This document shows positions 2,690-34,923 of a stretch of 40,173 nt of DNA, piece by piece. The position numbers and the translations under genes are program-made. The notes beneath the pieces are model-generated. The model was given only the letters and a program-made list of their open reading frames with translations, had not been told where the DNA came from and searched no databases. How positions within the stretch are numbered: position 1 is the first letter of the stretch; the number at the start of each line of letters is the position of its first letter. The stretch is from Deltaproteobacteria bacterium. Lineage in GTDB: Bacteria; Desulfobacterota; JAJRXV01. Where the stretch lies: positions 1 through 40,173 of the forward strand of contig JAJRZU010000022.1 in NCBI GenBank assembly GCA_024275075.1, written 5' to 3'.

Positions 2690-2728
2690 TCCACAAAGTA
2701 TGCGCGCAATTACTGGGCATTATGCCCT
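2690..2728. repeat. Long form of the GGGCAT repeat (palindrome copy 2 at 2715-2727)
   Basis: About 38 nt resembling the copies at 4003-4042, 13225-13264 and, reversed, 31277-31312. The palindrome GGGCATTATGCCC begins right at the stop codon of the DUF1302-like gene. With the copy at 4003-4042 it flanks that gene as a direct repeat. Confidence 0.75.
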
Positions 2729-3965
2729 AAAAGCTGTAACGTAGCTGCGTGTATATGTTATCGTTCTTGTCGAACTGGCCATACATCGTGTACTCCTCTT
2801 CGCCGCCGAAGATGTTCGCACCGATAGCGGCGTAAAGGTTGTCGCTCAGGTTATACTTTATCTCAGGGTTCACATAGTAATCCTTGTCAGTCGGGCTGTA
2901 CTGGGCATAGACGGAGAGCCTGAGCGTCTGGTACAAAAGGAACTGTGTCAGCCGCAGCGACGCGACCCGCCGTATCTTGTCGCGTTTTACCGCGCCTTCT
3001 GGCAGGTTCGCCTCATACTCATCAAAATCCTCCATCACCTCGGCGTAGTACTGCATACCGATGTTGAAGTCCGCGAACAGCTCCTTCTCAAAGCCCGCCA
3101 GGTACCTCTGCTCACTGTTCTTTACCATGGGGTCGGTGCCGTCCCCGTCGTCAACGGATATGTAGCGCCCGCCCTCGAGCTTCGCTACCCCGCCTAAGAG
3201 CGCTCTTAATAGCGACGCGCCGTACGCGTTAAGCTTTGGGTAGTATGTCTCGGCGGTATCCTCGAAGAACCGCATGTGCGGCTCCCTATAGTACGTGCGG
3301 TGCGCGTACAGTGAGATATCGGTATCCGCCGCGTATTTCGACAGTCTGAGCGATACCTCGCTGTTCGATATATCATTTTCGGGCAGCGTCTTCGTCACGC
3401 TGGTCACGCCCTCTGGCATCTCCGGGCTATAATAATAGAGCCTTTCGCCGTCGGCCAGGACGTCCTCCTCGAAGAACGGCGTCAGTATGAGTTCCGCGTC
3501 CACGATATCGCTGAAGATATCCGCTTTGAAGGAGGTCGTCGCGATCTTCATGTACTGGAGCGGCCGCCCGGCGAGCAACTACTCCCAGTTCTTCGGGAAG
3601 AGATCGTTGATGAAGAGAAGATCGCCCGTCCCCCACGTGGTTATCTGCCTCCCGAACTTGAGGTCAATACTCTCAAAACCGAGCGTTATGTACGCTTCCC
3701 GGATATCTATGTTGTAAGCCTCGTCCGCGCTCAGCTCATCCTTTATGAAATCGGCCTTGACAAAGAACGAAGCGTTTAGCGGGTCGTAGCTCTCTTTCGC
3801 GAGCTCGAGCTGGAGCCGCTCCTCGGCTATGATGTAGTCATCGTCACCGGTCACCCTTGATGAATAGTTGAGCCCGAGGAAGCCGTTTAGCGGTATCTCC
3901 TCTCCGGCGAACGCGTTTGTTGTAAGAAAGATAACGACAATGATAATTATAAGTAATCTTTTCAT
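2727..3965 (-). CDS. DUF1302-like outer-membrane barrel protein with an in-frame TAG
   Basis: Encodes an exported beta-barrel protein of about 412 residues. I start at ATG 3965 because GGAGTG precedes it; an ATG 12 nt upstream has no ribosome site. Residues 1-20 form a signal peptide ending AFA. Codon 129 is TAG (3581-3579). It sits inside a conserved DUF1302-type block: NDLFPKNWE precedes it and LLAGRPLQYMK follows in the same frame, matching the usual 'FPKDW..fffGR..eYlK' segment. The protein ends in YSF, a typical barrel C-terminus, at a second TAG. Proteins of this type often sit beside RND exporters and LolA-like proteins, as here, and may act in envelope lipid or hydrophobic-compound transport. 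It is either a readthrough gene or a one-codon pseudogene. Confidence 0.78.
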
Positions 3966-4002
3966 CTTCACTCCCATAATAGTTGTTATAATAATTAGTT
4001 AC

Positions 4003-7474: not shown

Positions 7475-9871
7475 ATGAAGCTCCAGCCGGTTATAAATTT
7501 ATTCAGAGAGCGCTTGGTCAAATCCATTATCTTTTCTATAGCTTCATCTATTGTTGTCATTTATTTACTGCTCACCTCGAATATATTCGATACGTTTGAA
7601 CTAAAGACATTAGATTATAAGTTTTCGCTTCGCGGGACAAAACCTGTCGCGTCTGATATCGCAGTGGTTTTTATCGGTAACCAGGATATTCAGGATATCG
7701 GGATATGGCCCTGGCGCAGGTATTATCACGCTCTGCTCATCGATACGCTGAAGAAGAACGGTATCGCCCAGATCGGGTTTGACATACTCTTTACCGACCA
7801 CTCGAAGAAGGAGTTCAAGGACGATGACTTCGCGCTGGCATACTCCACGAAAGAGGCCGGCAATGTGAATTATATCTCTTTTTTCGGGTACTTTGAGGAT
7901 GAAGCGTTTTCTGAAGAGGAGCGGGATGTGGTCGTCGATACCGCACCTTTGCCCCCTTCGCTCGCGAGATACTCCTTTGAGCTGCCGAAAGGTAAGGAGA
8001 AGCTTTTCAGGACGGCCACGAAGCACACACTGCCGATACCGGGCATCTTAGGCGCCGCCCAGGGTATCGGTTATGCGGACTGCCTCCCCGACGACGACGG
8101 CGTGACACGGAACCTCCCGATGCTTGTTAATTATAACAACAGGTTATACATGTCATTCACCCTTATCCTCGTGACTAACTACCTTGGGGTGGCAAAAGAG
8201 GATATCACGATAAACCCGGGGGAATCCATCATCTTGCTAAAAGGTGAGCAGGAGTATGTGATACCGATCAACAAAAAGGGTTAGATGATAATCAATTTCA
8301 ATCACCGGCTGGATGATTTTCAGGCGTATTCTTATAACCAGACGCTGCAATCCGAACTTTACCCGGAGCTCGCTGTATACGACCTGTCAGAATTAAAGGG
8401 GAAGATCGCGCTCGTCGGTACGACCTACACCGGTAACACCGACCTCCGCCCGACGCCGTTTGACCCCGCGTTCCCTTTTTTGTGCCTGCAGGCTACCGTT
8501 GTGGACAATATACTCCAGCAGGAGTTTATCTACAGGCCGGGCATAGCGCTCAGGATACTGCTGATAGTCTTTTTCTGCTTCCTTGTCAGCGTCTTGTGCA
8601 GCTACACGAACCCGGGGATAAATTCGGGTATCACTCTTGCGGTGATAGTCTCGTACCTGTACATGTCATACTTTGTCTTCAAATATTACGGCGTATGGCT
8701 CGATGTGATGTTCCCGCTTATCGCGATCCTGCTGCCGTACATCGTCATGACGACTATACATTACATATACGCGCTCTTTGAGAACATACAGTACCTTGAG
8801 CGGATGAAGTACCTTGGTAACCTTGTCGAGTCATCGCACGACGCTATCTTCAGCTTCGACCTCGATGGCGGCATCATCTCATGGAACAGCGGTGCGAGGC
8901 AGATATACGGCTACGACACCTTTGAGGTGCTTGGTAAGTCGTGGGAGATTTTCGCGCCGCCAGATAAGAGGGACGCCCTGCTCAAGATCGTCAGGGCAGC
9001 GAAGTCCGGCCGCTCCACCACAAACTATGAGACGAACTTCATCGTGAAAGACGGGTATACGATACCTGTAAATATATCGGTATCACCGATTATCAGCGCG
9101 AAAAGCGAGACAAGCGGCGTATCGGTCATCTCCCAGGACCTGACGGAGCGCAAGCGGCTGATGGAGCAGATAATGGAATCAGAAAAACTCGCGGAGGTCG
9201 GGAGACTCTCCGCCGGTCTCGCGCATGAGATGAAGAACCCCCTGACACCGATTATCTTTTATGCGGAGAACCTGTCTGAAATCAAGGAGATAGCGATAGA
9301 GGAGCTGCACACGCAGGCAGGCGTAATAAAGTCTGAGGCGGGCAGGATATTAAAGCTCGCGACAGACCTGCTCTCTTTTTCCAGACCGAAAGACGAGACG
9401 ATGAAACAGATAAATATCAACGATGTCGTCAACGATACTGTCCTGCTCATCGTCTATCAGGTGAGAAAGGCGGGCTCAGAGATTGAGAAGAACCTTGCAG
9501 AAAACCTTATGATGATAAAAGGGGAGCCAGACAAGATAAAGCAGGTGCTGATAAACCTTGTCATGAACGCCGCGCACGCTATGAAGGGGAAGAAGGGGAC
9601 TATCACGCTCACCACCCGCAACGTGACCGAAGACGGCAGCAGGCTCGTCGAAGTAGCCGTCGCGGATAACGGCTCGGGTATGTCGCAGGATGTGAAAGAC
9701 AACCTGTTCAAGCCGTTCTTCACCACCAAACCCAAAGGTATCGGTACCGGGCTCGGCCTGTACATCAGTTACAATATCATCAAGCAGCACGACGGGACAG
9801 TACGCGTCAAGAGCGAAGAGGGCGTCGGCACCACGTTCATCCTGCGGTTCCCGACCAGTAAAGGGGCGTGA
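7475..9871 (+). CDS. CHASE2-PAS sensor histidine kinase with an in-frame TAG
   Basis: A membrane sensor kinase of about 798 residues. Order: N-terminal helix (about 19-35), extracytoplasmic CHASE2 domain (to about 340), three helices (356-375, 383-404, 408-430), a PAS domain (445-560), HisKA with the phospho-acceptor His near residue 584 (GLAHEMKNPL), and HATPase with an N box (NLVMNAAHAM), a G1 box (ADNGSGM) and a G2 box (GTGLGLYIS). Codon 270 is TAG (8282-8284), inside CHASE2: IPINKKG precedes and MIINFNHRLDDF follows, as expected for the usual 'ipid..G..liNf.g....f' stretch. Translation restarting at the next ATG would lose most of the sensor but keep the kinase. No response regulator gene is adjacent; the nearest is the J-domain protein at 14613. 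It has no clear ribosome site. Confidence 0.9.
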
Positions 9872-10352: not shown

Positions 10353-10471
10353 AGAGAGTGTTGTCAAATAGAAAAAACAGGTATTCCTCAAAAACGCGGG
10401 GTTGTAAGTTGTTGATATTGCGGGGGTAGCCGACAACGGAGGCGAAGGGGCCAAGCCACTTGAATTGGATT

Positions 10472-10484
10472 GGGCATCATGCCC
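10472..10484. repeat. GGGCAT palindrome copy 4, beside the rtcB ribosome site
   Basis: GGGCATCATGCCC, preceded by AATTGGATT. The same 22-nt string recurs at 26294-26315 before flgA. It ends about 11 nt before the rtcB ATG. Confidence 0.8.
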
Positions 10485-10495
10485 ATAGAGGGAAA

Positions 10496-11938
10496 ATGTC
10501 TGAGCATATAATAGAAAAGGTAAGTGATTTTAAGTACATCATACGGAAAACCGGTGCGATGCGCGTTCCGGCGGTCATTTACTCGAACAGCGCGTACCTT
10601 GACCTGATCAGGAAGGACGCGAGCTACCTGCAGCTTGTCAATGTCGCGACGCTGCCCGGAATAATCGGGGCTTCGCTCGCGATGCCTGACATGCACCAGG
10701 GGTACGGTTTCCCGATTGGCGGGGTCGCCGCGATGGACCTGGACGAAGGCGTCATCTCCCCGGGGGGAGTCGGTTACGACATCAACTGCGGGTGTCGGCT
10801 TGTGCGGACGAACCTCACTTACGATGAGGTGAAGGGCAGGATAACCGACCTGATAAACGCCCTGTACCGGGCGATACCGACGGGTGTCGGCTCGAGGGGC
10901 TCTTTGAAACTGTCGAAGAAGGAGGAGCGCCGCGTCGCCGAAGAGGGCGCAGGGTGGCTCATCAAGAAGGGTTTCGCCGAACGCTATGACACAGAGCACA
11001 CGGAGGACGGCGGCTGCATCAAAGGTGCGGACCCGGATCTTGTAAGCGACAGGGCATACGAGCGCGGCCAAGACCAGCTTGGTACGCTTGGTTCGGGGAA
11101 CCATTTTCTGGAGATTGGTGTTGTCGATGAGATATATGATGAGGTCGCGGCAAGGGTTTTCGGGCTGTTCCTGAATGGCGTGGTCATCTTTATCCACACC
11201 GGTTCGCGCGGGTTTGGTTACCAGGTCTGCGACGATTACCTTGAAAAGATGGGCAGATACACCCGAAAAGCCGGCATCATCCTGCCCTACAGACAGCTTG
11301 CGTGCGCTCACTTCGCATCGAAAGAGGGGCAGGACTATTACCGCGCGATGAAGTGCGCCGCGAATTACGCGTTCGCGAACAGGCAGCTCATAATGTTTCA
11401 CGCCGCACAGGCTGTCTCGCGCACGCTGGGCAAGTCACCGGAAAATCTTGGGTTGCGTTTAGTATACGATGTGTGTCATAATATCGCCAAGGTAGAGGAG
11501 CATCTTGTGGACGGGAAACCGAAAAAGGTGTGCGTACACCGCAAGGGCGCGACGCGTTCTTTCCCCGCCGGGCACAAGAACGTGCCTGCCGCGTACAAGA
11601 GCGTGGGGCAGCCGGCGCTTATCCCCGGCGACATGGGCAGATATTCATACGTCCTGACCGGTACGCAGACGGCGATGGAGGAGTCTTTCGGGAGCACGTG
11701 TCACGGCGCCGGCAGGGTCATGAGCAGGCGTCAGGCGATAAGAGAATCCCGCGGTCGCCAGATCACAAGTGAGCTCGGCAAAAAGGGAATATATGTAATC
11801 GCGAAGAGATACAAGACGTTGAACGAGGAGATGCCAGACGCGTACAAGGACGTGTCGAAAGTCGTCGAGGTCGTCGACAGTATCGGTATATCAAAAAAAG
11901 TCGCGAAGTTAAGACCCCTGGGCGTAATAAAAGGGTAG
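10496..11938 (+). CDS. rtcB: RNA-splicing ligase RtcB
   Basis: GTP-dependent ligase joining 2',3'-cyclic phosphate or 3'-phosphate RNA ends to 5'-OH ends, used in RNA repair. The 480-residue protein has the full active site: GGVGYDINCGC with the metal-binding Asp95 and Cys98, GSGNHFLE, HTGSRGFGYQ, VYDVCHNIAKVE, and STCHGAGR with the guanylate-accepting His. It ends LRPLGVIKG, the standard RtcB C-terminus, so its TAG is a real stop, backed up by a TAA four codons later. I chose ATG 10496, after GAGGGAAA, rather than a TTG at 10460 that lies before the palindromic repeat. It is paired with archease. Confidence 0.97.
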   Translation: MSEHIIEKVSDFKYIIRKTGAMRVPAVIYSNSAYLDLIRKDASYLQLVNVATLPGIIGASLAMPDMHQGYGFPIGGVAAMDLDEGVISPGGVGYDINCGCRLVRTNLTYDEVKGRITDLINALYRAIPTGVGSRGSLKLSKKEERRVAEEGAGWLIKKGFAERYDTEHTEDGGCIKGADPDLVSDRAYERGQDQLGTLGSGNHFLEIGVVDEIYDEVAARVFGLFLNGVVIFIHTGSRGFGYQVCDDYLEKMGRYTRKAGIILPYRQLACAHFASKEGQDYYRAMKCAANYAFANRQLIMFHAAQAVSRTLGKSPENLGLRLVYDVCHNIAKVEEHLVDGKPKKVCVHRKGATRSFPAGHKNVPAAYKSVGQPALIPGDMGRYSYVLTGTQTAMEESFGSTCHGAGRVMSRRQAIRESRGRQITSELGKKGIYVIAKRYKTLNEEMPDAYKDVSKVVEVVDSIGISKKVAKLRPLGVIKG

Positions 11939-18681: not shown

Positions 18682-18729
18682 GTAAAAAACAAAAAACCAC
18701 ATTAGTTAAAAAATATCTTTACTTTTTTG

Positions 18730-18735
18730 TATAAT
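18730..18735 (+). promoter_or_regulatory. Candidate -10 element for the multihaem cytochrome
   Basis: TATAAT at 18730-18735 with only a weak TTAAAA at 18706-18711 (18-nt spacing). It is placed correctly for the GTG start at 18796. The weak -35 suggests an activator or an alternative sigma factor (inference). Confidence 0.4.
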
Positions 18736-18795: not shown

Positions 18796-21318
18796 GTGGA
18801 AACAAAATTACAGAAGCGTGCTATAATCAAGTCATCTCTCATCTTTTTCATTCTATCCTTATTATTTATCACTAATATAACTACTCTAAAAGCAGAAGAA
18901 GAGAAAGACCCGAACGCCGGTAGTCCGATCAAACTTATCTACCCGAAAAACAATATGATAATCTACGAGCAGCGGGATTGGGTGACCGGTGTCACTACCA
19001 AGAAAAACGCAGAGACTGTGCAATTAATCGTTATCGATAAGAGTACCGGCGATGAGATAGAAAATGACGAAGTGGAAGTGGATTATAATACTTCATTTAT
19101 TTATCCAGTTGAGTATATCCCCGGTATTAACATAATAAAAGTCAACGATTACACGATCAGCATCTTTTACCAGGAAGATGAGGATGTTAAGGCCCCGGAG
19201 AAGTTTAAAGATATGCTTGTGCACCAGTCAGTACCGGATCTTTGTCAGGAGTGCCATGACATTTTCCAGGAGGGTTCGTTCCCGTTAGGTGAGGAGAACC
19301 AGTTAGATATTTGCGATAACTGTCATAAGTCAAGGATATTTAACCGGTTAAGAAAGACATATAAGCAGATACATGAGCCGGTAAAGAAAGGGGAATGCAA
19401 TACCTGCCATGAGATACATATCTCTGAAAATGATCATATGCTTGTAAAGCCCCAGAACGAGCTTTGCGCGGAGTGCCATAAGGATTTCATAAAGAAAGTC
19501 AGGAAGGAGAAGTTTGTACACTTAGGCGACCTGTTTGACCGGATCTGCACCAAGTGTCACAATCCTCACTCCTCAAATTTGAAAGCGCTTATGCGGGACG
19601 TAAGGAAGGGCGTTTGTACAAAATGTCACGAGGCGTTCTCTGGAGAGAAGGCGGGGGTAGAGTACAAGTCTATCCATAAACCGGTGGTACAGGGTAAATG
19701 CTTTCTGTGCCATGACATTCACAGTGGTCGCAACAAGATGTACCTGATCAAAGATGACGCCACGGAGACCTGTAAATTTTGTCACGCTAAGAATGTAGGC
19801 GCCGGGCACGGTGCAAAGCTTGCCAAGTGTACAGAGTGCCATAATGCGCACATCTCGGATAAAGAGGGGCTTTTTACTGACAAGGGGAAAGCTAAGTGTT
19901 TGGGATGCCACAAGGATTTAGTGTACAAGAAGGATATTGAGAAGAAGGGGGAGTGCCAGCTATGTCACAATCCTCATACGAGCCGGAATGTTCAGATGGC
20001 TAAAATGTCGTGCAATAACTGTCATGACGCAAGCGTGCTTACTAAAAAGCATAGTGATATGACGCCAAGTTTCGATAAATGTTCAAAGTGTCATGAGATG
20101 CATGGCGAACTTGGCAAAGCGTTGTTAAAACGTAATTCTCATCCATTGAAAGAGAAGAGATGCAAGGGCTGCCACAAGAACAAAGAGCCATCTACGGCGA
20201 GGACTTCCTGTCTGGAGTGTCACAAGGGAGTCTATGGCGCGAAGCATCCTGAAACTATAGCGAACGAAGAAAGCTGCGTCAATTGTCATATCGTTCATGG
20301 CGGCGGAGTCGAGAAGATGCTCGCAAAGAACCAGCACAAGCCGTTTAAAGAGGGCAAGTGTGATGAATGCCATAAGAGCATCGAAGAGTCCTTGGTGTTA
20401 TCTGAGAAAGCGGAATCAGGCGAGCTTTGCCTTAGATGCCACAAGGATATCGGTCTTGACGAGAACAAGGAGCCGTACGCAACGCTGCATAAACCGTTTA
20501 AGGACAGGCAGTGTATAAAGTGCCATGAGACACACGCGTCCACCGCACCAAAGCTGCAACGCAAAAGCGGCTTTGCGTTCTGTTACATGTGTCATAAAAA
20601 CTTTACATTAGACAACAATGGTAAGCAGATGTTCTCAATCCATCAACCGATAAGCGCGGGTATGTGTTTAAAGTGTCATTATCCTCATGGCTCTCAGAAC
20701 GCAAAGTTGCTGCGAAAGACCTCGAAAGACCTTTGTTTTAGCTGTCACAAAAATTTCTTGTTTAGAGAGGCGAAGGCGCAGGCACCGAAACCAAGAGGCA
20801 GAATGACGAAGAAGGCAGTCGGGGAACTTAAGCCCGCGATGATACCTTATAAGACTGTCCACAAACCTATAGAAGAGGAAGGGTGCCCGATATGCCACAG
20901 CCCGCACTCCTCAAAGATAAAGAAACTGTTATTGCCCAAAGACGATACATTCTTCTGCTACAAATGCCATGAAGATTTTACTGTAAGTAGTGCCGGTGAG
21001 AAAATGGCGTCTGTTCATGAACCTGTCCTTAAAGAGGATTGTCTGAAATGCCACGTAGAACACGCGAACGATAACCCGAAGTTGTTGAGAAAGATACCAA
21101 ACGCATTATGCCTTGACTGCCACAAACTTTCAAGAGACCATCACCAGCTTAACAGGACTAATCTTGAAAGAATGGTTAAAATACCCGAGTCCTTCATCCT
21201 TGTCGGTACGGACTTGTTATGCACAAACTGCCATAACCCACATTCTTCCAAGGTGAAGTCATTGTTCGTGAAAGCCAAAAGGGAGCTGTGTACAAACTGT
21301 CATTCGTCGGTACCATAA
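18796..21318 (+). CDS. 28-haem c-type cytochrome (doubled CXXCH repeats)
   Basis: An 840-residue exported cytochrome with 28 CXXCH haem-binding motifs, from about residue 150 to the C-terminus. Most occur as pairs in the doubled-CXXCH pattern: CxxCHxxH then about 18 residues, then CxxCH, with HKP-type His spacers. I start at GTG 18796 because AGAGGGGGAG precedes it; a TTG seven codons upstream has no such site. A signal or anchor helix (about residues 15-32) is followed by a haem-free beta-rich domain of roughly 100 residues, perhaps Ig- or carbohydrate-binding-like, before the haems. The family conducts electrons across the periplasm or envelope. A porin gene converges downstream. No catalytic haem motif such as CXXCK is seen, so an electron conduit is more likely than an enzyme. 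Confidence 0.93.
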   Translation: METKLQKRAIIKSSLIFFILSLLFITNITTLKAEEEKDPNAGSPIKLIYPKNNMIIYEQRDWVTGVTTKKNAETVQLIVIDKSTGDEIENDEVEVDYNTSFIYPVEYIPGINIIKVNDYTISIFYQEDEDVKAPEKFKDMLVHQSVPDLCQECHDIFQEGSFPLGEENQLDICDNCHKSRIFNRLRKTYKQIHEPVKKGECNTCHEIHISENDHMLVKPQNELCAECHKDFIKKVRKEKFVHLGDLFDRICTKCHNPHSSNLKALMRDVRKGVCTKCHEAFSGEKAGVEYKSIHKPVVQGKCFLCHDIHSGRNKMYLIKDDATETCKFCHAKNVGAGHGAKLAKCTECHNAHISDKEGLFTDKGKAKCLGCHKDLVYKKDIEKKGECQLCHNPHTSRNVQMAKMSCNNCHDASVLTKKHSDMTPSFDKCSKCHEMHGELGKALLKRNSHPLKEKRCKGCHKNKEPSTARTSCLECHKGVYGAKHPETIANEESCVNCHIVHGGGVEKMLAKNQHKPFKEGKCDECHKSIEESLVLSEKAESGELCLRCHKDIGLDENKEPYATLHKPFKDRQCIKCHETHASTAPKLQRKSGFAFCYMCHKNFTLDNNGKQMFSIHQPISAGMCLKCHYPHGSQNAKLLRKTSKDLCFSCHKNFLFREAKAQAPKPRGRMTKKAVGELKPAMIPYKTVHKPIEEEGCPICHSPHSSKIKKLLLPKDDTFFCYKCHEDFTVSSAGEKMASVHEPVLKEDCLKCHVEHANDNPKLLRKIPNALCLDCHKLSRDHHQLNRTNLERMVKIPESFILVGTDLLCTNCHNPHSSKVKSLFVKAKRELCTNCHSSVP

Positions 21319-22027
21319 AGGATAAATGTTGGTTAAGGGAATTCAGCGGAGCTGGGTTGGCTGGGTTGGAGCGCGAAAGGTCATGAGAGTCTATTTATGT
21401 AAAATAAATACCTTTTCTAATACCCCTTCAACAAAAACCAGAAAGCCGACGACGGCTCTCTTTGGAAGACCAATACTCGTCAACTTGAACCTGATTATTA
21501 AAAGCCTGTTTCTGATAAAGTGATCAAGGAAACTTCTTACATCGCAATTTAATTTATCCTTACTTCTTAACTTCTTTTCCATCTTCTTACTCCGACCTTT
21601 ACTTCCTTATCGGAAAGTCTTACAAAATCTTTAACAGGCTCGCCTGTTTTTGCGGATTAATTCCCCGTAGCCTGCCGCGAGAGTTAATCCTTATATCCCG
21701 TCAGCTTGTTGCGGGGTAGTTCCTCAGGGTTCTCCTTCTTTTTCCCTTAGTCTAACCTTCTCCCATGAAATATTCATCTCAAGGGAGAAGGCGACTTAGG
21801 TTCCCTCATTATTAATGAGGAGAAGGCGATTACATTATATACAAGCATAAATTATGCCAATAATTTAAAAACCGTGAAAAATTATAGATGGGATTGATTT
21901 TATTATATAAATAAACAAATTTTTTTTACAGGGGTTGTCATTGAGGTTAATGATTAATGAAAATAGTGGGAAATAATTCTATGAAATGGCGTTAAATGAC
22001 AAAAAATGTCAATGATGTTTAATAACA
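21319..22027. other. Gene-free stretch with hairpins, between cytochrome and porin
   Basis: About 700 nt with no convincing gene; short reading frames on both strands have no family likeness, no ribosome site and no domain. It contains AACAGGC-TC-GCCTGTT (21633), GGATTAA/TTAATCC arms around CCCCG (21654-21693), CCTTCTCCC/GGGAGAAGG (21756-21791) and CCTCATT/AATGAGG (21804-21820). The last 190 nt are AT-rich. Confidence 0.6.
21633..21651 (+). terminator. Possible terminator hairpin AACAGGC/GCCTGTT plus T run
   Basis: A 7-bp inverted repeat followed by TTTT on the plus strand, about 315 nt after the cytochrome gene. Nearly the same sequence occurs at 24180-24199, so it may be a dispersed repeat rather than a dedicated terminator. 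Confidence 0.4.
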
Positions 22028-22057
22028 AAAAGAGGGGAGAAATCTCCCCCCCTCTTT
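22028..22057 (-). terminator. Terminator of the porin gene
   Basis: AAAGAGGGGAGA pairs with TCTCC...CCTCTTT around a short loop. Read on the minus strand the stem ends in CTCTTTTTGTT, giving a T run 31-60 nt after the porin stop codon. Confidence 0.75.
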
Positions 22058-22087
22058 CATATAAGTTTACTTATTGTAAAATTACGC

Positions 22088-23323
22088 CTACCAGTTCACT
22101 ACAAGCCCGACAATAATGTCATCGTCATCAGCGTCTTCCACCACTGTCCCGTCTTCGTACTCATCTTTATATTCGCTGTGTCTGTACTCGGCTTTTAGTT
22201 TCGTGTTCTTGTACAGCTCATAACCGACACCGACGCTGTACTCTGATTTCTCGTTATCTAATCTCTTCTTGCCGTAGTTGTCGTCACTCGTGTCAGTGTT
22301 GTAAAGGTAGCCGTCATCATATACGCCGTACCTGAAAGCAAGCTCTAAATTTTCAACCAATGGGCTGAAGCTAAGCTGCGCATAGTACCCTGAAACATCC
22401 CTGTCCTCTGGCGCTGGTGCGGTTGCGCCATCACCGATCTCCGTGGCGCTCCCGGCAATAGCGTTTTCGTCTTTGCCGCCGACTACCTCGGCAATGATAA
22501 CACTGCTAAGCGGGCAGTTATACAGGTCTTTACCATCGATCCTCAGGTGAGCTCCCCACCGGTTGGAAACGTTTTCCATTGCTTCGTCATACTTACCGGT
22601 GACGTAAGAGCCGCCGGCCCTCAGGCCGTCAAGAGGTGTGACAGAGAGTCTTGCGCCGACAGACCTGTTCCTGTTGCTGTCCTTGGCGAGCCCGCCGCTT
22701 GCAGCGTCACCGTTTATTACATATAGATCCAAATCGGCAATACCGGCGATATCCTGAGCGATACCGATACCGACATCTGTCCAGGTACCTTTGATGATAT
22801 TACCCTTCTTCATTACCTTTGGCCTTGTTATCAACTTGTTCTTGTCCCCTGGATAGCTTTCATACTCGATACCGAACGGTACATAAAAGATACCGGCGAA
22901 TATCCTTGTCTCTTTTACTGGTGTTATTGAGATGGCCGCGCTGTCCACCTTAAACTCACCAGAGCCTTCATGTTTCACTTCAGTAACGACGTCCACAGCG
23001 TCGTCACCGGCGCCTACTGTCGCTGTTTCCACCTCTAATTCCGGTTCTAACACAGGGAAATGCTCATATTCAAACTCCGCGGATACAGAAACTTTACCTG
23101 GTACAATATCTGTCCCCATCCAGATAACTATCTTGTGAGCATCAAATGTCTCATACTCACCCTCTGTGTCCCAGTACTCAAACTCGTAGTAACCGTGCAG
23201 ATCCATACCAGAAGAAGAGCCGAGCTCCACCCCCCCCAAGTCAAACTCCTCTGCCGCCAGACTAACTGACGCAAGTAATACTAATGTTAATAATGTTGTT
23301 AATAGCAATAATGCTTTTCTCAT
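22088..23323 (-). CDS. Outer-membrane porin, exported beta-barrel
   Basis: A 411-residue protein with a clear signal peptide (MRKALLLL...SLAAEE, cleavage near residue 23) and alternating aromatic/polar strands typical of a barrel. It ends in VVNW, a C-terminal aromatic residue as expected for insertion by the Bam machinery. A DLHGYYEFEYWDTEGEYETF strand opens the mature part and acidic turns are common. It resembles phosphate-selective/DcaP-like porins in general form, but I cannot name a family. It is transcribed alone, with AAAGGAGG before the ATG, and converges on the 28-haem cytochrome gene, so a porin-cytochrome link is possible but unproved. It ends at TAG at the natural C-terminus. Confidence 0.82.
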   Translation of the reverse strand: MRKALLLLTTLLTLVLLASVSLAAEEFDLGGVELGSSSGMDLHGYYEFEYWDTEGEYETFDAHKIVIWMGTDIVPGKVSVSAEFEYEHFPVLEPELEVETATVGAGDDAVDVVTEVKHEGSGEFKVDSAAISITPVKETRIFAGIFYVPFGIEYESYPGDKNKLITRPKVMKKGNIIKGTWTDVGIGIAQDIAGIADLDLYVINGDAASGGLAKDSNRNRSVGARLSVTPLDGLRAGGSYVTGKYDEAMENVSNRWGAHLRIDGKDLYNCPLSSVIIAEVVGGKDENAIAGSATEIGDGATAPAPEDRDVSGYYAQLSFSPLVENLELAFRYGVYDDGYLYNTDTSDDNYGKKRLDNEKSEYSVGVGYELYKNTKLKAEYRHSEYKDEYEDGTVVEDADDDDIIVGLVVNW

Positions 23324-23425
23324 GTGCCCCTCCTTTGATAATTTTTTACAGCTTTTATTAGTTGACCTGATTAACGTTTAATTCACCCCAAGCAAGTATC
23401 GCCTGATTATGTGAAACATTATATC

Positions 23426-24031
23426 TCATCTTTTAAAGACAAAATAACCAAATGCTTTGTTAAGGTTATTTTTAATCACATCAGTGTTCTTCTTGAACTC
23501 CTCAAGGTTCGTCGGATCGGCGTACAGCTTATCTAACCGCTCAAACGCCTTGCTAATCTCACTGTTTAAAGAGGTGCCTTTCTTCTTGTCATAGCTCTTG
23601 ACGTTACCGCGCAGGACACCAGTATAATAAATCTTACATATCTCAAGCTTGCTCTTGGAATATTCTGCATCCTTAAGCTCCTTCTGGATCATTATCTCAA
23701 ATTTTTCTATAGTCGATAAGTATATAAGGTTTGCAAGGAGCTTCACTACCCGCTTGAAGTTTTTGTCTGAAATGGCGCTCTTAAGCTCCGGCAGGAGATT
23801 AAACCCGAAGAACTTGTCCATATTAGCGATCGGGGTCGAAACGTTCTCGATAACTTTTGTCACCTTCTCCCAATCATTCGCTTTTACCGCGGAGATAGAA
23901 TTCCTGAAAGCGTTCAAAACAGGGTCATTCTCAGCAGAACCGCTATAACCATAAGGGAAAGCGACCGCAGGCAACATAAGAATTAAAATGATCACTGCCG
24001 CTATGCTATTTTTTAAACCCTCTCTCCTCAT
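23426..24031 (-). CDS. Exported helical protein of unknown function
   Basis: About 201 residues from ATG 24031, where GGAG precedes and a typical signal peptide follows (KNSIAAVIILILMLPAVAFP, ending before YGYSG). An upstream in-frame ATG at 24103 would add 24 charged residues before the signal and is less likely. The mature part is mostly helical and rich in Lys, Asn and Ile, with no Cys pair or catalytic motif that I can see. It lies upstream of the porin gene on the same strand, 102 nt away, so both may serve the same envelope process. No family is recognised. Confidence 0.65.
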   Translation of the reverse strand: MRREGLKNSIAAVIILILMLPAVAFPYGYSGSAENDPVLNAFRNSISAVKANDWEKVTKVIENVSTPIANMDKFFGFNLLPELKSAISDKNFKRVVKLLANLIYLSTIEKFEIMIQKELKDAEYSKSKLEICKIYYTGVLRGNVKSYDKKKGTSLNSEISKAFERLDKLYADPTNLEEFKKNTDVIKNNLNKAFGYFVFKR

Positions 24032-24179
24032 CTTCTCCGCCCATTTTTTTGTTAAAAAGAGATAATGCATCAAGTCCCTTGTATAATCCCCCCTCCTTCT
24101 CAAATAATCAATTATCTTATACGGTTATTAGAACCTTTTTTTAAACTACCGTACTTTTTTTACTATGTCAAGTTTTTTC

Positions 24180-27334: not shown

Positions 27335-28135
27335 ATGACACACCTTAAACTGAAATATATTCTGTTTATATTAGCGCTATTTGTGCCGCTTACAGCCTCG
27401 TGCTCCAAAAATGTCAACGCCAAAAAGGATACGCTTGACATGAGCGCAACAGATGCGCCGGATAAGCGGGAAGGCGGCACGATTGCGATAAAGAGAGGGC
27501 TTGGCATCGATGAGTATCTCGCGCAGGAAGCAAAACTGTCTGCCGACGCCCCTGATTCGGTTGAAACAGAATCCTTGTGGGACGAGACCTACTCCACCGG
27601 CCTTCTGTTTGTCGATCACAAAGCGCGACACGTCGGTGATATCATCACCGTTCACATAATCGAAAGCTCTTCCGCGAGCAAGAACGCGTCCACGAAGACA
27701 TCCAGGGACTCCTCCATCGACGCCGGGCTGGACAACCTTTTAGGCCTCCCGACAAATTTCGGGATGAAGAATTTCCTGAACTCCGGGCAGCCATTCTCAC
27801 CGAATGCCAAGTCGAACTACAAGAACAGTTTCAACGGATCCGGCTCCACATCCCGGTCAGGTAAGATCACCGCGACGATTACTGCGGAAGTCGTAGAAGT
27901 GCTCCCGAACGGAAACCTGAGAATAAGCGGCTCAAGGGAGATAAAAGTCAACGAAGAGAACCAGATCATCACCGTTTCTGGTGTGGTCAGGCCGCAGGAT
28001 ATAGACGAGACTAACTCTGTAAAATCCACGACGATCGCAAGCGCGCAGATCAAATATTACGGTGAAGGTATCATCGCGGATAAGCAAAGTCAGGGCTGGC
28101 TCGCAAGTATATTCGATGTTATATGGCCTTTTTAG
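27335..28135 (+). CDS. flgH: Flagellar L-ring lipoprotein FlgH
   Basis: Forms the outer-membrane L ring around the rod. The 266-residue protein has a lipoprotein signal with Cys23 (PLTASC), then a Ser/Lys-rich linker and the FlgH core: LLFVDHKARHVGDIITVHI, NGSGSTSRSGKITATITAEV, EVLPNGNLRISGSREIKVN, ITVSGVVRPQDIDETNSV, and the ending FDVIWPF, the family-typical C-terminus. It ends at TAG, a genuine terminator by this criterion, followed two codons later by TGA. It starts 1 nt after flgA. Confidence 0.96.
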   Translation: MTHLKLKYILFILALFVPLTASCSKNVNAKKDTLDMSATDAPDKREGGTIAIKRGLGIDEYLAQEAKLSADAPDSVETESLWDETYSTGLLFVDHKARHVGDIITVHIIESSSASKNASTKTSRDSSIDAGLDNLLGLPTNFGMKNFLNSGQPFSPNAKSNYKNSFNGSGSTSRSGKITATITAEVVEVLPNGNLRISGSREIKVNEENQIITVSGVVRPQDIDETNSVKSTTIASAQIKYYGEGIIADKQSQGWLASIFDVIWPF

Positions 28136-28177
28136 GGATGAGGGGTGAAAAACGTGATTACTTATAGAGAAAGATTT

Positions 28178-28732
28178 ATGAACAATATGAAAAAGCCTCC
28201 TCTCCCCTGGTGGGAGAGGGCTGGGGTGAGGGGAGATTCTACCGATATTATTACAACTTTCACCCTCCCATTTATCCCCTCCCAGCAAGGGAGGGGAACT
28301 GTTTCCCTGCGGTGCAAAGTTCTTGGCAACGCAATTAGCATCATCAAAGCAGCGACATTCGGCATTATACTTATCGCACTTATTGTGCTTAATATGAGCT
28401 GCTCAAACGATCCGGTAGGCTCAACAGGCACCAGCGCTTCTGGTTACACTATGGCGATCCGGGCGAACCCTGACCAGCTCCGGGCAAACGGCACGGATAC
28501 CGCTCTGATAGTCATAGAAGTATGGGACAAGAACGGGAACTATGTCAACAACGCCAACGTGACTTTTTCCGTCTCCCTGGGCACATTGTCATCATCCACG
28601 GCCACGACGTCAAACGGTGTCGCTGTCGTCACATACACCAGCTCGACATACGAGGGCACCGGTATCGTTGCCGCCGCTGTAGAGAATATTATCTCAAAGG
28701 CGGAGATCGTACAGTTTTATACAACGAGATAA
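28178..28732 (+). CDS. Ig-like (BIG1/invasin-type) lipoprotein in the L/P-ring operon
   Basis: A protein of about 184 residues. The C-terminal ~100 residues form one bacterial Ig-like domain of the BIG1/invasin type (ANPDQLRANGTDTALIVIEV, NNANVTFSVSLGTLSSS, GVAVVTYTSS). Before it is a hydrophobic segment ending NMSC, a plausible although imperfect lipobox. I start at ATG 28178; GTG 28145 is an alternative. The first ~50 codons are read through a palindromic repeat (28193-28310) that gives the peptide PPLPWWERAGVRG, so the original start of the gene was probably different. It lies between flgH and flgI, an unusual place, and may form a surface or periplasmic part of the flagellar ring (inference). 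Confidence 0.7.
   Translation: MNNMKKPPLPWWERAGVRGDSTDIITTFTLPFIPSQQGRGTVSLRCKVLGNAISIIKAATFGIILIALIVLNMSCSNDPVGSTGTSASGYTMAIRANPDQLRANGTDTALIVIEVWDKNGNYVNNANVTFSVSLGTLSSSTATTSNGVAVVTYTSSTYEGTGIVAAAVENIISKAEIVQFYTTR
28193..28310. repeat. Palindromic repeat inserted in the Ig-lipoprotein leader
   Basis: Arms CCTCTCCCCTGGTGGGAGAGG (28198) and CCCCTCCCAGCAAGGGAGGGG bracket a less structured middle. The left arm is followed by CTGGGGTGAGG. This is a widely dispersed type of bacterial intergenic repeat; here it is translated in frame, with no stop. Confidence 0.7.
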
Positions 28733-32852: not shown

Positions 32853-32922
32853 GAATATCACTTAGGAAGCGTGATGCATAGCACAATCTAATGTGTAGCA
32901 TCTTATGTATAGGGGTAACGCA

Positions 32923-34923
32923 ATGCCAAATATATTAGCAAGCTTAGAGACCGGTAAGAACTCCCTCATCTCAAACCAGATCGGGATGGAGACCACCGGC
33001 CATAACCTGGCGAACGTCCACACCAAGGGCTTCTCGCGGCAGAGGACGGAGTTCGGTACGATGTACCCGGATGACGTGCAACCCGGCCAGATCGGCAAAG
33101 GCGTGCGCGTGGAGAAAGTGCGCAGGATATACGATGAATATTTAGAGAACACTCTGCGCAGGGAGCGCACCGGTTTAGCGGAGTGGTCGTCTATATACGA
33201 CTCCCAGACGCTTGTCGAGGTCGCACTAAACGAGCCGTCGAAGTTCGGTATGAACAACCTCACAACAGAGTTCTTCAACTCCTGGCAGGATTTGTCAGAG
33301 TACCCCGAAGACTATGGCCTGAGGAGCCTGGTCAAAGATGCCGGTCAGAATTACACCGAGTCTTACAACCAGCTGAAACTTGACCTGAACCATATCCGGC
33401 AGAGTATCGACGATAAGGTCGTCAGCAGAGTCGGCAGGATAAACGAGATACTTCAGGATGTCACCGAACTGAACACAAGGATATTAAGCATTGAGGTGGC
33501 GGGCAAGCAGGCGAACGACCTGAAGGACAGGCGCGATAACCTGACTACCGAGCTTGCCGAGTACATCGACATCAAAATCACTGAGGACACCAACGGCATG
33601 AGAGTGAGTTTCGGGAACTACCTGCTCCTCGAAGGGAGCTTCAGCAACCTGTTCGACACCCAGGTGAACGCGGCTAACAACGATCTTCATGACGTCACCT
33701 TTGGCGGCGGCGCCATAAACTTCTAGAACCTTGCAGTGAACAGCAGGGGCGAGCTCGGCGGTATGATACAGTTTAGAGACAATATTGTCCCGGGCTATAT
33801 CGACAAACTCACGGATTATGTCACCAGCATAGCGCACAATGTAAACGATGAGCATTTCAGCGGCTACTCCTATGACGGCAGTGTGACGAACATCAACTTC
33901 TTCTCACTTACCGACACTAACAATTCTGATACTCAGCTGCACACGGCAAGAACCGGTATCATCAGGATCGACGCGATGAACAATATGCAGGCGGGATCGC
34001 ACCACCTCGTCATGTCCGCCCTGGGCACCATGAGCGCGAACGCGAACGGTAACATCTCGACCGGCGGCACCATCGCGCTGAACCAGGCGGGGCTCTTTAC
34101 CGGTACGACGGGCTCTGACTACTACGTCAGCGTCGTCGCACCAAACACCGGCGCCGGTGACCTCGGCGGGATGCAGGTGCAGCTCATGCGGGACACCACC
34201 GCGATTAGCGCTGTTTTCACGCTGCCCGCGGGAGCCGGCCCGACAAACGTGGCGTTCGGTACTTACGACGGTATCACATTTGACGCGGACATCACCGCTA
34301 CCGGCGGGTTCTTCACCGCGACAGAACGCTCGAACGGGTACTACCCTGATCTTCAGGCGTCCTTAGACGGCGGCGCGGCTGTGAATATCACGCCCAACGG
34401 ACTGTATACGCTTACCGGTGGGACAAACAACGGGTTCACGGCGGGCGGGACGATGAACGTCGTATACGGCGGCGCAGTCGTGCTCGGTAACGATACCATC
34501 ACCACTTACACACAAGATTCCGTCATCGGCGTCGAGAGCGCTATCGTGACGAACGCGAACAATATCGCCGCGGCGTCGAACATGAATGCCGCGGGCGACA
34601 ACACTAACGCCCTTGACATTATCAACCTTCAGTTTCAGGATTTTATGCAGGGCGATACGCAGACTTTCGCTCAATATTACAATGAACTGATCACTTCGAT
34701 CGGCTCTGATACAAAACTGGCACTCAGGTGGAAGGATAACCAGACAGTGCTCGTCGACCAGTTGAGACAGCAGCGGGAATCGATATCCGGCGTAAACATA
34801 GACGAGGAGCTGACGTATATGCTCAAGTTCCAGCGCGGCTTTGAGAGCGCTTCGCGCTACGTCACAACCATAGATGGCATGATCGACGTTATTATCAACA
34901 GGATGGGTTATGTCGGCAGGTAA
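32923..34923 (+). CDS. flgK: Hook-associated protein FlgK with an in-frame TAG
   Basis: First hook-filament junction protein, 666 residues from ATG 32923 (AGGGG upstream; a nearer upstream ATG at 32905 has none). N-terminal SLETGKNSLISNQIGMETTGHNLANVHTKGFSRQR and C-terminal MLKFQRGFESASRYVTTIDGMIDVIINRMG are standard. Codon 268 is TAG (33724-33726): GGGAINF, stop, NLAVNSRGELGGMIQFRDN. The following stretch is the conserved 'G.l.Gll..Rd' segment in the same frame, so the gene is broken by one codon only. Residues about 385-470 form an inserted domain similar to one in FlgL. Without suppression no hook-associated protein 1 would form. Confidence 0.9.

Follow-up and report, generated by a model that had tools for sequence, protein, structure and literature searches.

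A 28-haem cytochrome gene

The stretch analysed here, referred to as the window, comprises 40,173 nucleotides of a Deltaproteobacteria bacterium genome (GCA_024275075.1, contig JAJRZU010000022.1; genome G000 and contig C123 in our numbering), a 2.46-Mb assembly of 179 contigs that is rated 95.81% complete and in which no 16S gene was found. It carries a gene for a c-type cytochrome of 840 amino acids with 28 haem-binding CXXCH motifs (18796..21318, + strand). The gene begins at a GTG codon at 18796, which is preceded by the purine-rich GAGGGGGA, and a weak promoter-like site (10/12 matches) lies upstream at 18706..18735 (+), one of 16 such sites in the region where 10.8 are expected. Judged by eye from the sequence, residues 1-33 (18796..18894, +) appear to form a signal peptide with a signal-peptidase-I-like site (LKA|E) and no lipobox. 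A putatively immunoglobulin-like (Ig-like) domain follows, delimited by alignment with related proteins (A1) as residue 44 to the first haem (18925..19242, +); no haem motif occurs up to residue 149. The haem region extends from the first cysteine of haem 1 (residue 150) to the histidine of haem 28 (residue 836; 19243..21303, +). Its motifs are spaced in a doubled pattern, mainly 23 and 27-28 residues apart, interrupted by a variable linker, rich in Lys and Pro, that separates haem 22 from haem 23 (20749..20883, +) and where the spacing is 50 residues (63 in the ortholog described below).

The protein contains 28 histidines outside the CXXCH motifs and no cysteine outside them. Shuffling residues 44-840 two thousand times (2000x) gave a mean of 0.27 and a maximum of 3 motifs, compared with the 28 present. 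The Pfam model Paired_CXXCH_1 scores 363.8 bits against a cut-off of 20.6, which places the protein in this class, and class III/c7 cytochrome models match as well. The polypeptide amounts to 28.8 residues, or 3.27 kDa, per haem.

Fifty-nine genomes were searched with the cytochrome, namely the window's own, one from another genus of the same family (G001) and 57 others of the phylum. The sole other full-length match was in G001 (contig C270, which holds both L029 and L041 and was counted once), a 28-haem protein of approximately 61% identity over residues 44-840. When named genomes were scanned with the 28-haem protein alone, in a mode that detects close relatives only, one relative was returned. 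A plasmid collection gave only two weak matches. Comparison with this one close ortholog revealed identity at 84/84 motif positions, 56/56 cysteines and 28/28 of the other histidines, whereas lysines were identical at only 61/101 positions. As all 28 motifs and all 28 other histidines are kept, every haem can be bis-histidine ligated. The first-pass annotation of this DNA had described 28 CXXCH motifs in doubled-repeat spacing behind a haem-free N-terminal domain; direct counting, the shuffles, Pfam and the ortholog all agree with the former, and the latter is real, recurring across a family of cytochromes.

Haem number within a family sharing the N-terminal domain

The N-terminal domain also heads other cytochromes, in G000, in G001 and in a further genome, G022. 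Nine such segments, each running up to the first haem, were aligned (A1) and share the invariant positions P7, G22, F58, G67, N69 and H100 in addition to the motif. The Pfam family Glucodextran_B matches two of the nine (E up to 0.1, best 2.2e-5) and does not match the window's domain; the one member for which a score is shown reaches 22.8 bits, below the curated cut-off of 27. Glucodextranase domain B is an Ig-like sandwich, and both AlphaFold2 models, although of low confidence, place seven strands in the domain. These observations are weak evidence that the domain may be Ig-like. A search of the PDB with the domain profile returned nothing significant (best E 0.65).

With the profile, matches were obtained in 35/395 genomes of the phylum, a count that takes in the window's own (30/328 among the cleanest). 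From 57 listed places 45 were fetched, the remaining 12 being mostly the weakest, and in all 45 an open reading frame includes the domain. Nine of the 45 went into building the profile, so that their scores are not independent; this applies to the window protein (E 1.2e-39), whose own row helped to build it. The most frequent haem numbers are 24 (11 members) and 14 (nine members), followed by 17, 18 and 35 (three each), 8, 25, 28 and 31 (two each), and single members with 3, 4, 10, 12, 15, 22, 23 and 29 haems. Three members (L085, L103, L107) run to the end of their stretch. At least 14 haems are present in 39/45 members, with a range of 14-35 among these. No prior description of such a family of long cytochromes was recognised among the titles and abstract openings of open-access papers.

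Several subgroups have their own gene neighbourhoods. A 14-haem subfamily with the domain and near-constant spacing (L105, L108-L113, L115, L117) includes several loci that adjoin an exported protein of about 330-365 residues and a 10-haem protein. Before the 24-haem members L094, L098, L099 and L104 lies the gene of an exported protein, some 690-720 residues long, for which DUF6055 matched in one of three proteins scanned. A PEGA/ABC-transporter operon lies beside one 31-haem gene, and similar gene sizes occur beside two others. Neither the 690-720-residue exported protein nor the PEGA/ABC-transporter operon is present at the window cytochrome.

The register of the haems was compared across 29 members that have 15 or more haems, leaving out L085 because it is cut. 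In the numbering of the window protein, haems 1 and 4-11 are present in 29/29 rows and haems 2, 3, 12 and 13 in 27/29; haems 17-27 align in 21-29 of the 29 rows and haem 28 in 11, although all these counts lean upwards since CXXCH motifs attract each other in the aligner. Haems 14-16 of the window protein are not common to 30% of the rows. The window protein is thus a member of the family, having the N-terminal domain before haem 1 and then haems in register.

A midpoint-rooted tree of 30 members, calculated from the N-terminal domain and 13 haems, left 10 of its 27 inner branches open. The eleven 24-haem proteins form one group (92/98) and 13 rows of variable length form another (95/98). The window protein and its G001 ortholog occupy a long branch of their own (82/90), weakly joined to a distant 25-haem protein. 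Within the variable group, 8/13 rows fit the formula 17 + 2n + 2, i.e. a 17-haem head, n two-haem units of approximately 45 residues and a two-haem cap. These are L090 (n = 2, 23 haems), L092 (n = 3, 25 haems), L097 (n = 5, 29 haems), L100 and L102 (n = 6, 31 haems) and L047, L086 and L093 (n = 8, 35 haems). The other five comprise L048 and L089 (17 haems), L096 (22), L091 (18, ending early) and L085 (15, cut). Haem number varies between genera of the same family (35/23 in f22, 35/25 in f88, 29/31 in f45). In two 35-haem proteins of one genus (L047 and L086), position-matched units are 0.82-0.95 identical. Adjacent units within each of the eight fitting proteins have a mean identity of 0.37-0.54 (0.31 in L096). 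In the 35-haem proteins adjacent units (0.38-0.42 identical) are no more alike than distant ones (0.43-0.46), so that nothing points to tandem duplication in recent times. Some of the short forms could have arisen from repeat collapse in draft assemblies; G022, which has 35 haems, is a single contig.

The window protein lies outside this variable group of the tree. Its cap spacing is 37, 23, compared with 36, 23 in the variable group, and it has (28, 23) spacings before the cap. From this spacing we infer an arrangement of 18 + 4 x 2 + 2 haems.

Neighbouring genes and other electron-transfer genes

A gene for an outer-membrane porin of 411 amino acids (22088..23323, -; Porin_O_P, 2.8e-7) converges on the cytochrome gene across a gap of 770 bases. 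A terminator-like hairpin lies 3′ of the porin gene (22028..22058, -), one of 9 such sites in the region where 5.5 are expected. The porin's conserved neighbour, a small exported protein (23426..24031, -), may start further out, as 24031, where the region given in the first-pass annotation ends, is an internal ATG of its gene and the first TTG is at 24103; the BLASTP match of its ortholog starts after 24031. No Pfam match was found for this protein (23426-24031/24103, -). A barrel and a small exported protein on the opposite strand are therefore where the first-pass annotation had placed them. That annotation went on to raise a porin-cytochrome conduit of a new arrangement, an idea in favour of which stand the short distance of 770 bases and the export of both products. 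We nevertheless regard a conduit of the adjacent porin and the 28-haem cytochrome as very improbable. Convergent genes cannot share a promoter, so porin and cytochrome would, as far as can be read from the DNA, be regulated separately, which the same annotation had named as grounds for giving up the conduit. Moreover, the gene order of the two is kept in G001, with the porin (44% identical by BLASTP, 52% in another search) again directly preceded by the small protein (64-67% identical), and this pair lies on contig C181, apart from the cytochrome on C270. No haem protein was found beside the pair in the 20 of 26 kb of C181 that were read. The genes downstream of the G001 cytochrome encode glycosyltransferase-like, FlhB, UvrC, carbon-nitrogen hydrolase, TPR, LytB/UbiA, ankyrin, ferritin-like and TPR proteins; no barrel was found with Pfam among these nine scanned neighbours, a set that excludes short frames and one incomplete frame where the contig ends. 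To the left of the G001 cytochrome approximately 850 bases are known, and linkage on that side is possible.

The distribution and size of the porin point the same way. A strong match to it occurs in only 2/59 genomes (the window's own and G001), with two further matches at E near 1e-6, compared with 35/395 for the N-terminal domain. At 411 residues it is short for a conduit barrel, since MtrB is described as having 26 strands (PMC7198977) and PCC3 porins are described with up to 42 transmembrane regions (PMC5566968, PMC10734462). A barrel of the MtrB/PioB type (PF11854) had no match in the window's genome, in a search whose control matched 1/14 named genomes. Taken together, the porin and the small protein form a conserved pair and the cytochrome stands alone; the adjacent porin is not supported as its partner, and the two genes are probably unrelated. 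OetI, which is described as forming the barrel in a porin conduit of Desulfobacterota that partner anaerobic methanotrophic archaea (PMC10553843), was followed up as a separate lead, and no link between OetI/OetAB and the 28-haem protein was found.

The first-pass annotation had also held that the lack of other electron-transfer genes would count against its reading, and had suggested a search for an inner-membrane quinol oxidase of the CymA/NrfH kind. Other electron-transfer genes are present, many multihaem cytochromes among them, so that this objection falls away. A CXXCH-like DNA pattern occurs 635 times on both strands of G000, compared with 190 matches for the reversed pattern. Contig C167 carries a NapC/NrfH-type gene (PF03264, 6.7e-19), albeit with one in-frame TAA, together with a cytochrome b561-type protein, 6- and 3-haem proteins, an NHL protein and a 31-haem protein of 1344 amino acids. 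In the 40 kb of contig C12 that were read (L034, L035), giant cytochromes with 12, 26, 18, 12 and 22 motifs accompany a 3-motif protein; they are 802-2086 residues long, the longest having 26 motifs, and have many residues per haem. They are perhaps extracellular. Propeller-type and other exported proteins are encoded in the same cluster.

Two other members of the family have quinol-linked neighbours, which were noted for these loci only: L042 of G001 adjoins a NapC/NrfH-type multihaem cluster and L108 (genome G338) a b561-type multihaem cluster. This fits electrons coming from quinol. No NapC/NrfH- or b561-type multihaem cluster was found beside the cytochrome in the window.

In-frame stops occur in several other genes. 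In the window, TAG codons split flgK (32905-34923, +; TAG at 33724-33726), the gene of a CHASE2 protein (7475-9871, +; TAG at 8282-8284) and a gene pair (2727-3977, -; TAG at 3579-3581). An in-frame TAA interrupts not only the NapC/NrfH-like gene of C167 but also the G001 family cytochrome L042. These stops may reflect sequencing error, decay or readthrough; PylS was considered as a cause of the TAG codons and had no match in the genome. Further along the window, the palindromic stretch CCTTCTCCC...GGGAGAAGG at 21752-21793 and an HPSPLPPGERR-like frame at about 27932-28288 both resemble repeats of the repetitive extragenic palindromic (REP) type. A 492-residue protein (10460-11938, +) has as its best NCBIfam match the C-terminal part of an intein-containing RtcB-family model (711 bits, cut-off 1150).

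Possible function and relation to known systems

With modest confidence we favour the reading that the window gene stands alone and encodes a soluble, exported, peptide-minimal cytochrome, likely periplasmic, whose 28 bis-histidine haems would form one continuous linear chain of approximately 20 nm, of the MtrA/NrfB-like doubled-CXXCH kind. The chain would pass electrons between inner-membrane quinol-linked cytochromes and outer-membrane or surface cytochromes, and the putatively Ig-like head would keep one of its ends attached to a partner protein, a role that the first-pass annotation had also considered for the domain. A long bis-histidine chain that is exported and has no lipid anchor fits a wire crossing the periplasm. 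Cytochromes below 5 kDa per haem are described as peptide-minimised, with chain length proportional to haem number (PMC7096707). The example of 86 haems for 630 Å given there corresponds to 7.3 Å per haem, and by this rule the window protein would measure ~205 Å and the 23- to 35-haem forms ~168 to 256 Å. The same source puts the need for crossing a periplasm of ~200 Å at ~27 haems and regards proteins with 21-24 haems from iron oxidizers as possible bridges across it. The wire of roughly 10 nm or more envisaged in the first-pass annotation is a likely reading, in view of the 3.27 kDa per haem and the estimated length. Sequence comparison at E <=0.001 found a single solved relative, 6r2q chain A (residues 129-238, 1.1e-11), labelled cystathionine beta-synthase, which we take to be MtrA of the MtrCAB complex. 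MtrA is described as a ten-haem chain of 80 Å (PMC7198977).

A broader proposal, which we put forward tentatively and think rather doubtful, is that the whole family consists of trans-periplasmic wires of tunable length. A constant Ig-like head with ~17 haems, a variable number of two-haem units and a constant two-haem cap would then be fitted to the intermembrane distance of each lineage, the window protein being the 28-haem version with units of 51 rather than 45 residues.

Several points weigh against the wire reading. AlphaFold2 gave a predicted local distance difference test (pLDDT) score of 31.5 for residues 44-840 and 37.8 for the N-terminal domain, each from two alignment rows, and with values this low the linearity of the haem chain rests on analogy. 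The NapC/NrfH-type gene of G000 has the in-frame TAA described above, whereas the comparable gene in G001 is uninterrupted. No conserved neighbour ties the 28-haem type to a quinol oxidase or an outer-membrane protein, and the neighbours of its two members differ. Moreover, the protein may likewise be exported beyond the outer membrane.

The last point leads to the suggestion that the protein is secreted as a surface cytochrome or as the subunit of an extracellular filament. It has a signal peptide, no retention signal was seen in it, and large multihaem proteins with a high residue number per haem occur elsewhere in the genome (for instance the 2086-residue, 26-motif protein of C12). These, however, must be set against the absence of a lipobox, a mass per haem of 3.27 kDa compared with 7.5 kDa for the OmcS nanowire (PMC7096707), and a solved relative by sequence that spans the outer membrane as a wire and is reached from the periplasmic side, and we consider secretion unlikely. 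A somewhat better case can be made for a periplasmic electron store, in which the haems would serve as a capacitor or shuttle with no end-to-end bridge between the membranes. The missing fixed partner gene and the many multihaem genes in the genome would suit it, and a capacitor role has been raised for comparable 21-27-haem proteins (PMC10734462). Strict spacing, with a head and a cap around a differing number of units, would be unexpected for storage, although this is argument only; storage is possible, if not the explanation we would choose. If the wire reading holds, candidates for bridging of about 27-haem length now occur in another phylum, and at the window gene without a porin operon. 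Electron crossing of the periplasm is usually ascribed to small diffusing cytochromes. Natural length variants (23, 25, 29, 31 and 35 haems) make the bridging idea testable by comparing periplasm width with chain length.

Among known systems, the window protein passes the cut-off of 192 bits for the DmsE family decahaem model of NCBIfam (TIGR03508) with 231 bits, summed over nine stretches. The protein differs from MtrA/DmsE in having 28 haems rather than ten, so that it is not a decahaem cytochrome, in its additional N-terminal domain, and in that no barrel partner of the MtrB/PioB type was found in its genome. HmcA is built of class III cytochrome repeats, and the 16-haem HmcA model of sulfate reducers gives only 59.9 bits, where its cut-off is 400. 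As to the OmcS, OmcE and OmcZ filaments, only the mass per haem of the window protein speaks against its being a polymerising filament subunit.

The periplasmic cytochrome of PCC3, in Sideroxydans and other iron-oxidizing bacteria, is described as having 21-27 haems and very few residues per haem, and as a modelled long, mostly linear protein suggested to span the periplasm (PMC5566968, PMC10734462). With 28 haems the window protein is one above the 21-27 printed for Gallionellaceae, at 28.8 residues per haem and with a probable periplasmic location. The PCC3 cluster itself (a large porin, an extracellular multihaem cytochrome and an inner-membrane protein) is absent from the window and from the G001 neighbourhood. 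Compared by these descriptions, the window protein fits PCC3 in size and not in gene cluster. Periplasm-spanning multihaem cytochromes have thus been proposed before, as in PCC3.

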